A stretch of DNA of 42,653 bases from an uncultured Verrucomicrobia subdivision 3 bacterium. Lineage in GTDB: Bacteria > Verrucomicrobiota > Verrucomicrobiia > Limisphaerales > UBA11358. The stretch spans positions 1-42,653 of the forward strand of contig CAIMLG010000030.1 of assembly GCA_903842235.1 (NCBI GenBank), written 5' to 3'. Position 1 is the first letter of the stretch; the number at the start of each line of letters is the position of its first letter. A program made the position numbers and the translations under genes. This document shows positions 8,168 through 21,765 of this stretch, in pieces. The notes beneath the pieces were generated by a model. That model was not told the origin of the DNA. It did not search any database and saw only the letters and a program-made list of their open reading frames with translations.

Positions 8168-8252
8168 TGGTGCCCACGACAGGACTTGAACCTGTATGAT
8201 TTTACTCACTAGAACCTGAATCTAGCGCGTCTGCCAATTCCGCCACGTGGGC
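8168..8252 (-). tRNA. tRNA-Leu (anticodon CAG), CCA encoded
   Basis: On the minus strand this folds as an 85-base class II tRNA. The acceptor stem is GCCCACG/CGTGGGC with discriminator A and encoded CCA. The anticodon stem CTAGA/TCTAG closes the loop TTCAGGT, giving anticodon CAG. A variable arm (GTGAGTAAAATCAT region) is followed by the T arm with GGTTCAAGTCC. The long variable arm, the D-loop TTGGCAGA and the anticodon identify leucine. Recombinase genes flank it on both sides, and its 3' end is the probable attachment core for integrase 1. Confidence 0.95.
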
Positions 8253-19450: not shown

Positions 19451-19485
19451 ATTCGCCTAAAATTCCATAAGGTGCCATCCTGTTG

Positions 19486-21765
19486 ATGGGAAAAATGTCC
19501 GCGCCGCTTACAACTGAACTGCACGTCACTGGCATGACGTGCAACAACTGCGCCCGCAAGGTCACTGTGGCCGCGCAGCAAGTCGCCGGCGTCCACAGCG
19601 TCACCGTCAGCCCGCCGACCGGTCGCGTTACCGTGCGCTGGCTGGCGGCGGCAGAAACCGACGTTCCCGCCGTGATTGCCGCCATCGGCGCAGCGGGTTT
19701 TGCCACCAAGGAAATCACCGCCGCCGCGCCGTTACGCCCAAGCCGCCGGCCGTGGCCCCTGATCGTGGGGCTGGCGGTCACCGGCGTTTTGATGGCGGGC
19801 GAATGGCTGTTCCACCTGATGATGGCGGACTGGTTTCGCTGGCTCTCGCTGGCCCTGGCGGGCGGCGTGCAGCTTTACTGCGGCGCGCCGTTTTATTCCG
19901 GCGCGTGGCGGCAAATCAAGGTTGGCGCTTCCAACATGGACACCCTCGTCGCGCTCGGCTCCACCACGGCGTTTGGTTACAGCGCCTGGGTGCTGTTGAG
20001 CGGCAGCGGGGGCCACATTTACTTCATGGAAGCGGCGGCGATCATTTCGCTCATCAGCGTTGGCCATTGGATCGAAGCCCGCGTCAGTGAAAAAGCCGGC
20101 AGCGCGCTGAAATCGCTCATGAATCTCGCACCGCCAACCGCCCGGCGGATTGTTCCATCGCGTAGCAGCCGACGTGAGGAGGCTCCAACTAAATTCGGCA
20201 TTCGATATTCGACATTCGGCATTAGTCAGAGCCTCCTCACGTCGGCTGCTACAACCGAAGAGGAAGTTGCCGTTGCCTCACTGCAAATCAATGACCGCCT
20301 TGCGCTGCGGCCCGGCGACCGCGTGCCGGTGGATGGCGTGGTGCTGGAGGGGGAATCGGCAGTGGATGAGGCGATGCTGACCGGCGAATCCGTTCCCGCC
20401 GACAAAACATCCGGCAGCGAATTGTTCGCCGGCACGGTGAATGTGAACGGCCGCCTCGTGATGCGCGTTACCGCCACCGGCGAAAGCACCGCGCTCGCCC
20501 ACGTCATCGCCGCCGTGCAGCGCGCGCAGTCCAGTCGCGCCAACATCCAGCGCCTCGGCGACCGCATCAGCAACCTCTTCGTGCCCATCATTGTCGCCAT
20601 TGCCCTCGCGGCGGGGATTTTCTGGTTCGCGCATTCCGGCGCGGAGCAGGCCTTTGTCATCGCGGCCGGCGTTTTGATTGTGGCCTGTCCGTGCGCGATG
20701 GGTCTGGCCACGCCCGCCGCGATTATGGCGGCCGCCAATACCGCCGCCCGGCGCGGCATTTTGATTCGCGACGGCGTGGCGTTGGAGAAAGCGGGGGAAA
20801 TCACGGCGATCGTCTTCGATAAAACCGGGACCATTACCGAAGGAAAACCGAAGGTGATCGCAAGTCATCATTTTCAAATCGCGCTGGCTTCGGAGTTAAA
20901 GTCGTTCAAAGTTGAAGATCTGGCGGCGGCGCTCGCCACCCTGTCCGGCCATCCGATTAGCAAGGCGGTAGCGGCAAAGTCGGCCGCGCGGATTCCCCTC
21001 AAAGATTTCAAAGAGATTTCAGGAAGCGGCATCGAGGGAATGATGGCATCAGGTCATTGGCTTCAGTTGGGCTCGTTAAATTGGTTTAAGATTGAGGGAA
21101 TTGAGGTCGAACCGGCCCTGCCTTTTGCCGATGAATGGACCGACCAAGGCGCCACCGTAATTGGGTTCGCCGTGAACCAGCAAATGGTTGCTGTGTTTGC
21201 CCTGCAAGATGCCTTGAAAGCGGCCACCGCCAAAACCCTCGGCCGACTGTGCAATCCCGATTATCAGACTGATGGATACAAGATCTATCTGGTTTCAGGA
21301 GATTCGCCCCGGACAACCCACGCCATTGCCAGACAATTGAACATTCCGGCTGCGTGTGTTTTCGCCGAAGTGCGCCCGGAGCAAAAAGCTGAGTTTGTGA
21401 AAAAATTGCAGGCGCAAGGCGAGCGCGTGGCCTTCGTGGGGGATGGCATCAATGACGCCCCGGCGCTCACCCAAGCCGATCTCGGCATCGCCGTCAGCCG
21501 CGCGAGCGATGTGGCGCGCGAGGCGGCGGATATCATCCTGCTGAAATCGGAAATCGAAGCCGTGCCGGAGGCGTTGGGCCTGGCGCGGGCCACCTTGCGC
21601 ACCATCAAGCAGAATCTCTTCTGGGCCTTTTTCTACAATGCGCTCGGCGTGCCGCTCGCGGCGTGCGGCGTGCTCAGCCCGGTCTTTTGCGCCGCAGCTA
21701 TGGGCGTGTCCGATTTGATTGTCATTGGCAACGCCCTGCGCCTGCTGCGGTGGAAAAGGAAATAA
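19486..21765 (+). CDS. copA: Copper-type heavy-metal P1B-ATPase with an inserted repeat
   Basis: This inner-membrane pump exports soft-metal ions, most likely Cu(I), using ATP. An N-terminal HMA domain has MTCNNC (Cys19, Cys22). The membrane CPC motif is Cys401-Pro-Cys403; TGES is at 299-302; the phosphorylated Asp is D445 in DKTGT; the hinge GDGIND is near residue 652. The end reads MGVSDLIVIGNALRL, a little different from the usual MSxSS copper signature, so the metal is not certain. I chose ATG 19486; a TTG three bases upstream and an ATG at 19495 are alternatives. Residues ~226-256 are an in-frame insertion derived from a palindromic repeat (20162-20252), sited between the second pair of helices and the actuator domain. 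The gene follows the fused synthase by 35 bases. Confidence 0.93.
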   Translation: MGKMSAPLTTELHVTGMTCNNCARKVTVAAQQVAGVHSVTVSPPTGRVTVRWLAAAETDVPAVIAAIGAAGFATKEITAAAPLRPSRRPWPLIVGLAVTGVLMAGEWLFHLMMADWFRWLSLALAGGVQLYCGAPFYSGAWRQIKVGASNMDTLVALGSTTAFGYSAWVLLSGSGGHIYFMEAAAIISLISVGHWIEARVSEKAGSALKSLMNLAPPTARRIVPSRSSRREEAPTKFGIRYSTFGISQSLLTSAATTEEEVAVASLQINDRLALRPGDRVPVDGVVLEGESAVDEAMLTGESVPADKTSGSELFAGTVNVNGRLVMRVTATGESTALAHVIAAVQRAQSSRANIQRLGDRISNLFVPIIVAIALAAGIFWFAHSGAEQAFVIAAGVLIVACPCAMGLATPAAIMAAANTAARRGILIRDGVALEKAGEITAIVFDKTGTITEGKPKVIASHHFQIALASELKSFKVEDLAAALATLSGHPISKAVAAKSAARIPLKDFKEISGSGIEGMMASGHWLQLGSLNWFKIEGIEVEPALPFADEWTDQGATVIGFAVNQQMVAVFALQDALKAATAKTLGRLCNPDYQTDGYKIYLVSGDSPRTTHAIARQLNIPAACVFAEVRPEQKAEFVKKLQAQGERVAFVGDGINDAPALTQADLGIAVSRASDVAREAADIILLKSEIEAVPEALGLARATLRTIKQNLFWAFFYNALGVPLAACGVLSPVFCAAAMGVSDLIVIGNALRLLRWKRK
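20162..20252. repeat. 91-bp palindromic element inside copA
   Basis: Two 24-base arms (20162-20185 and 20229-20252) are perfect reverse complements and begin GTAGCAGCCGACGTGAGGAG. The 43-base loop contains a micro-repeat of the type ATTCGGCATT. The element is read through in frame, giving SRSSRREEAP on entry and LLTSAATTE on exit. The perfect arms suggest recent insertion or selection for pairing. This looks like a REP/MITE-like family; copies elsewhere in the genome cannot be seen from this window. Confidence 0.9.

Follow-up and report, generated by a model that had tools for sequence, protein, structure and literature searches.

A GTAG-tagged palindromic repeat lying in frame within a copper ATPase gene of Limisphaerales, and the protein turn that holds it

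The 91 bases at positions 20162-20252 of a DNA stretch from an uncultured Verrucomicrobia subdivision 3 bacterium (contig CAIMLG010000030.1; the whole 42,653 nucleotides analysed are referred to as the window) lie within copA, and are best explained as a GTAG-tagged REP dimer of REPIN architecture that was transposed into the gene and kept at a tolerant, repeatedly entered turn of the protein, a reading to which we assign a probability of about 0.86. The dimer would be a small dispersed repeat of this order of Verrucomicrobiota, with no coding role of its own, that reached copA by transposing as a single strand able to form a hairpin, the mover presumably being a tyrosine transposase acting in trans. 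Its survival would be due to a turn at the edge of the A-domain that probably tolerates changes of length, together with arms that are open in most frames (two of three for the left arm, all three for the right). The turn would have been entered repeatedly, by this REP and by other repeat families, or its segment recombined between species, and the perfect pairing of the present copy would reflect later insertion or homogenisation with other copies rather than selection on a hairpin in the mRNA.

The inverted repeat and its host gene

The features of the region are as follows.

19483-21765, plus strand: copA, encoding a P1B-type copper ATPase; the repeat encodes residues 227-257 or thereabouts, within a turn that is flanked by TARRI and EEEVAV and precedes the A-domain match.
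20162-20185, plus strand: left REP unit, a GTAG tag and the hairpin AGCC-GA-C[GTGA]G-GA-GGCT, identical to the exact family consensus.
20186-20228, plus strand: dimer spacer of 43 nt, whose best match among 156 other family spacers is, narrowly, the spacer in copA of genome G302.
20193-20223, plus strand: degenerate heptamer array within the spacer, (ATTCG[G/A][C/T])x4 + ATT as read from the sequence.
20229-20252, minus strand: right REP unit, reverse-complementary to the left unit at every base; the copA frame across it gives ..SLLTSAAT..

The arms are complementary at 24 of 24 bases across the 43-nt spacer, and when lengthened to 31 nt are still 94% complementary; by chance alone, the window should contain about 5e-8 perfect inverted repeats of 24 bp with a gap of at most 150. 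When synonymous codons were shuffled in 52 copA homologues over 20 rounds, zero to three inverted repeats of score 14 or more arose per round, against seven in the unshuffled set, in which the repeat at 20162-20252 scores 25. The host ORF (760 aa, with a TTG start as listed) stays open through the repeat, and its product matches the HMA, E1-E2_ATPase and Hydrolase domains of Pfam. The motifs TGES, CPC, DKTGT, HP and GDGIND are all seen in the product. The initial annotation, which had placed exact 24-base arms and a 43-base loop in frame within copA with the catalytic motifs intact, was thus confirmed, and by its in-frame position the repeat is predicted to be translated into CopA. As RNA, the 91 nt are predicted to fold at -62.3 kcal/mol (z -13.5). 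Across the window, the only Rfam match at gathering score is a tRNA (8171-8252, minus strand).

The repeat family, its dispersal and its in-frame copies

A search of the source genome (G000; 354 contigs totalling 4.32 Mb) gave 21 arm matches at up to three mismatches and none for a reversed control, the matches grouping into 16 sites. Within the order, an arm match at no more than one mismatch occurs in 146 of 293 genomes, G000 counted, and among genomes sampled from the phylum outside the order in one of 114. The exact 24-mer is present in at least 119 stretches of named genome contigs; among the matches listed, most titles refer to Verrucomicrobia, Verrucomicrobiales, Limisphaerales or Pedosphaera, and some to Akkermansia, Klebsiella, Proteobacteria, Phragmitibacter or simply a bacterium. 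The proposal that the palindrome is a dispersed repeat of mobile type is therefore borne out by the source genome and its relatives.

Each arm is itself a hairpin, composed of GTAG-C, then AGCC-GA-C[GTGA]G-GA-GGCT, then C. The tag is conserved over 359 arms (G in 353, T in 350, A in 342 and G in 355), as expected of the GTAG REP superfamily; the exact consensus is found in 175 of the 359, a share inflated by the fetching of loci through exact or near-exact matches. Covariation was assessed on arms gathered with one pattern at up to five mismatches, a procedure giving no favour to paired over unpaired changes. Over the five stem pairs, assessed in 100 of the 119 distinct arms, pairing holds in 91.6% of cells versus 81.0% after shuffling, and 35 cells are changed on both sides versus 7.1; none of 500 shuffles reaches the observed values of paired cells, double-changed cells, pair types or covariation score, while the number of stem pairs changed on both sides (four) is matched by 26 of the 500. 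In slid controls only 22-50% of cells are paired, and the covariation score is lower as well. The 100 distinct arms thus have the short imperfect hairpin body, with complementary stem changes, of GTAG REPs.

The 149 loci collected comprise 122 head-to-head dimers and 70 single units, which, with the 16 sites of the source genome, is the dispersed and often dimeric occurrence that characterizes GTAG REPs. Two inverted REPs making one hairpin, the mark of a REPIN, are evident in the copA copy, in the family dimers and in the predicted RNA fold. The ends are GTAG and CTAC, not the CGTC end tag of the Rickettsia palindromic element. Runs of eight or more with a period of 7 nt occur in 19 of the 122 family spacers, versus 0.015 in shuffles, and none occur at periods of 5, 6, 8 or 9; the copA spacer, with a longest 7-nt periodic run of only 6, looks like a degenerate example.

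A dimer was counted as lying in a long ORF where an open frame extended at least 60 codons to either side of it and at least 250 in total. By this definition 47 of the 122 dimers are in long ORFs, the remaining 75 having no long open frame across them. A Pfam match (E up to 1e-5) in the same frame accompanies 37 of the 47, and ten have none. The element falls inside a single match in 18: CHAT (L073, L104), C5 DNA methylase (L080), protein kinase (L083), CCP_MauG (L098), exonuclease VII (L106), PSD1/DUF1553 (L111, L129, L167), GCV_T (L117), UvrD_C (L136), PSCyt2 (L138), nitrite/sulfite reductase (L182), tRNA_Me_trans (L189), PDDEXK_1 (L194), RecQ zinc (L196), GDE_N (L197) and HATPase_c (L213). 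In the other 19 with Pfam matches it is beside, between or at the edge of matches. Inspected by eye, the three DUF1553 (PSD1) proteins seem to be interrupted by the dimer at one common position, which would be another instance of repeated occupation of a site. In the source genome, seven of the 16 sites are in predicted ORFs with Pfam domains: the element is inside the match in an EPSP synthase and a pseudouridine synthase, beside it in copA, where homologues reveal the insert, and outside it in kinase, O-antigen ligase-type, NuoJ-type and UDG-type proteins.

The commonest pair of frames reads SSRREEA..SLLTSAAT (24 of 37). The main class of spacer length modulo 3 makes up 24 of 37 coding dimers and 37 of 75 others, with no clear difference; since the modulo-3 bias extends to dimers that no long ORF spans, it is not used as evidence that spacer length is selected to preserve the frame, and no such selection is claimed here. 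Two sites of the source genome bear mention for their arrangement. In one (L026, contig C344), pseudouridine synthase and SAM methyltransferase domains share one open frame, and the synthase domain contains both a REP unit and a heptamer array. In the other (L012, C238:49379-49446) the GTAG of the dimer seemingly supplies, by eye, the TAG stop of an ORF that looks HisF-like from its peptide. Provision of an ORF stop codon by the GTAG of a REP is described for other species in PMC3733652.

The initial annotation had also raised the matter of a RAYT-type transposase nearby. The window contains no Y1_Tnp (RAYT-type) gene, and the six such genes of the source genome are on other contigs, with the REP absent from the stretches of up to 1.5 kb taken on each side; no nearby partner emerged. 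Y1_Tnp genes were searched in this genome and in 15 high-copy genomes, and 36 loci were examined (all six of the former, 30 of 135 from the latter); in none of the 36 does the copA REP lie in the close flank, and in four it lies 0.5-1.3 kb away. Among 32 Y1_Tnp loci scanned for inverted repeats, several have other hairpins on both sides and several have none. At six loci (L030, L219, L230, L231, L237 and L239) the gene stands between RTAG-CCCGGCGTTTCAACGCCGGG-type and similar hairpins, and these look like REPtrons of other families. An alignment of about 28 kb between one contig each of G116 and G072 (mostly 89-95% identical) contains no clean empty site from which the act of insertion, its boundaries or a MITE-like target duplication could be read: two dimers are common to both genomes, and at three sites the local DNA has been replaced wholesale.

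The CopA turn and the history of its insert

Compared with the solved CopA structure 3rfu, 33 residues of the query (225-257) replace three. The insert lies in the turn before EEEV at the start of the A-domain, a surface beta-hairpin turn at the domain edge. The distance from TARR to PGD is 54 residues in G000 CopA and 23-25 residues in all 12 homologues measured outside the genus; within the genus it is 36-85 residues in 32 of the 34 homologues measured, G000 included, the short turns being those of G023 (24) and G010 (27), and the sister G002 having 44. The expectation that family members have a short loop here was accordingly upheld for 3rfu and all 12 homologues outside the genus, and failed within it, where the turn is hypervariable in sequence as well (34 measured).

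For all 52 CopA genes a REP score was taken as the best left plus right arm in the turn, with 500 shuffles each; a 494-aa fragment without the turn (G303) and the shorter duplicates L249-L252 of L269-L272 were dropped from CopA counts, and for the CopA ORFs of G002 and G023, with one in-frame stop each, only the stop-free parts were used. The REP is present in the turn of five of 36 genus genes and in none of 16 outside the genus, with left and right arm mismatches of 0/0 in G000, 5/2 in G302, 6/4 in G208, 8/4 in G031 and 9/5 in G077. In all five the right arm is equalled by 0 of 500 shuffles; the left arm is weak in G077 (29 of 500 as good) and less so in G031 (4 of 500). The remaining turns, G002 and G005 included, have at least 20 mismatches over both arms. 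G183 has a suggestive right arm (nine mismatches; 21 of 500 shuffles) and was excluded from the count.

Other palindromes occupy the same turn. Those of G016 and G020 hold another palindrome that is dispersed in their own genomes (35 and 31 matches, E up to 0.001) and that of G030 holds a third (49 matches), these three being counts of matches and not of sites, as one site can match by either arm and on either strand; the turn of G208 also contains a fourth, of GTTGGAGTTCAAG type (41 matches versus 4 in the control). In the nucleotide-binding part of CopA, another loop contains the copA REP in G001 and the GTTGGAGTTCAAG type in G014, G030 and G031. The turn looks like a hot spot that accepts repeats, its five REP carriers being scattered on the gene tree, and the FDLR core found in it throughout the genus may be an ancient, decayed spacer. 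Translated heptamer arrays such as GCAATCCGCAATCCGCAATCC are seen in the CopA turns L038, L039, L041, L049 and L062 without a copA REP, and similar arrays occur in REP spacers too. The turn of L253 (G019) has a long insert with, by eye, a short inverted repeat GTGAGGGAGCG/CGCTCCCTCAC, and strong inverted repeats are found elsewhere in copA, near query residue 500 in L259 (G052; 39-nt arms) and near query residue 644 in L048 (G008; 21-nt arms).

The history of the insert is approached here through G302, whose CopA is 69.6% identical to that of G000 at the protein level and whose gene is 55% identical at third codon positions. Its copA has a dimer, now decayed, that agrees with the G000 insert in codon position and frame, with an in-register spacer of 43 nt in which 30 of 43 bases are equal, and the encoded peptide is largely common to both genomes in other codons. 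The G302 spacer scores 17 against the G000 spacer, versus 15 for an unrelated site, and so ranks narrowly first among the 156 others; shared descent of the two inserts is likely. The same comparison weakens the earlier suggestion that perfect pairing signals recent mobility, since a decayed dimer with the same spacer length stands at the same place in G302 and perfect pairing is then no proof of recent insertion. The initial annotation had further held that an old protein feature would be marked by the same peptide in different codons in all close homologues; this is nearly so for one, G302, and not for all. In the CopA tree (turn columns kept where at least 30% of rows were filled) G000 is sister to G002 (100/100) and G302 to G005 (99/95), neither sister having the REP; presence of the REP amounts to five changes, and a G000+G302 clade, a group picked after the tree had been seen, is rejected (p-AU 6.4e-6). 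This scattered distribution and the rejected clade imply that the turn was entered repeatedly, or that its segment moved between species, or that many losses of an old insert took place. The exact-consensus arms of G000 fit better with later insertion, or copying from family members, than with slow decay.

A single old insertion in a CopA ancestor, followed by exchange of the segment between species and decay or replacement elsewhere in place of repeated insertion, is a credible though doubtful account. It draws on what G000 and G302 have in common, namely the position, frame and orientation of the insert, the length of its spacer and 30 of 43 spacer bases, and on G000 residues 237-276, which include the insert and are closer to G302 (0.70) and G077 (0.66) than to the sister G002 (0.44); over 40 flanking residues on each side, the eight closest sequences include G302 and not the sister. 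In both flanks, however, other genomes lacking the REP are as close as G302 or closer, and in G031 and G208 the REP is in another frame with a 14-nt spacer, so that at least two events are needed. Selection on the copA hairpin itself, whether at the RNA or the DNA level, for instance to tune translation or mRNA decay, is improbable: the fold is very stable (z -13.5), pairing is perfect in G000 while 5 of 24 arm positions are unpaired in G302, and a G302 substitution in one arm is matched by its complement in the other (GTAG/CTAC to GTGG/CCAC), yet 31 of 36 genus homologues, the sister G002 among them, lack the hairpin, the REP unit recurs in dozens of unrelated genes, and arms equal to the family consensus are accounted for by family-wide copying without a role in copA. 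The initial proposal of selection on an mRNA hairpin thus found no support in any test, the stability of the fold notwithstanding.

That the palindrome is incidental to an ordinary old protein insert we consider very improbable; many CopAs of the genus do have a long variable turn with a core of FDLR type, and the spacer peptide KFGIRYSTF can be aligned, but exact 24-nt arms recur across the order, the chance expectation is about 5e-8, and the dispersed copies speak against it. A foldback artefact of assembly is hardly tenable, even for a draft of 354 contigs and 88.65% completeness, given that the arm family recurs across many assemblies and that G302, G077, G031 and G208 each have a decayed version at this place. 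Insertion of a REP dimer into a tolerant turn thus remains our preferred reading. A more far-reaching version, which we put forward tentatively, is that the CopA turn of this genus is a true landing pad, entered time after time by unrelated dispersed repeats that leave new peptides behind, and that copying keeps the REP dimer identical to its family, so that an old insert looks new.

Comparison with known translated palindromes

Among the papers listed by our literature searches, mostly open-access ones, we saw none that treats the copA REP of Limisphaerales or describes repeats within CopA. Translated GTAG REPs are already known from other bacteria, and the copA REP family is a further case. 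It adds an order with a single family in half of its sampled genomes and many copies inside conserved enzyme domains, and recurrent use of one turn by several families, if true, would make the question of how repeat DNA becomes protein directly testable. It also calls for caution in annotation: peptides like SSRREEA..QSLLTSAAT in proteins of this group are derived from repeats and are not functional motifs.

In the study by Di Nocera et al. 2013 (PMC3733652), GTAG REPs are reported inside ORFs, in highest number in Opitutus terrae, itself a member of the Verrucomicrobia; the inserts are of 20-30 residues, flexible linkers or loops are offered as the reason for their tolerance, and REPs are found at about the same site in two recB genes of Xanthomonas. 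The copA REP resembles these elements in its GTAG end tag, in a short hairpin with a covarying stem and in having copies inside ORFs, and further in the unpaired GA residues described for one family and in dimers mostly 20-100 bp apart (PMC3733652). The likeness drawn here, to a set of 24 published families, concerns tag and architecture. It differs from the GTAG REPs of that account in that one CopA turn is used by several unrelated repeat families, and in that no REPtron of the copA REP was found.

REPINs, as described by Bertels and Rainey 2011 (PMC3116915), similarly consist of two inverted REPs and a spacer that form one long hairpin, and in the loci examined for the present family dimers outnumber singles. 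They are defined as extragenic and adjoin RAYT genes (PMC3116915), whereas the present family has many intragenic copies and showed no RAYT gene close by. An older parallel is provided by the Rickettsia palindromic elements (Ogata et al. 2000, 2002), which, according to the review PMC10969869, are translated in frame inside unrelated genes. They are longer, at about 150 bp (PMC10969869), and those of R. conorii end in CGTC, as mentioned in PMC3733652, where the copA REP ends in GTAG; what the two have in common is a palindromic repeat set in frame inside unrelated genes.
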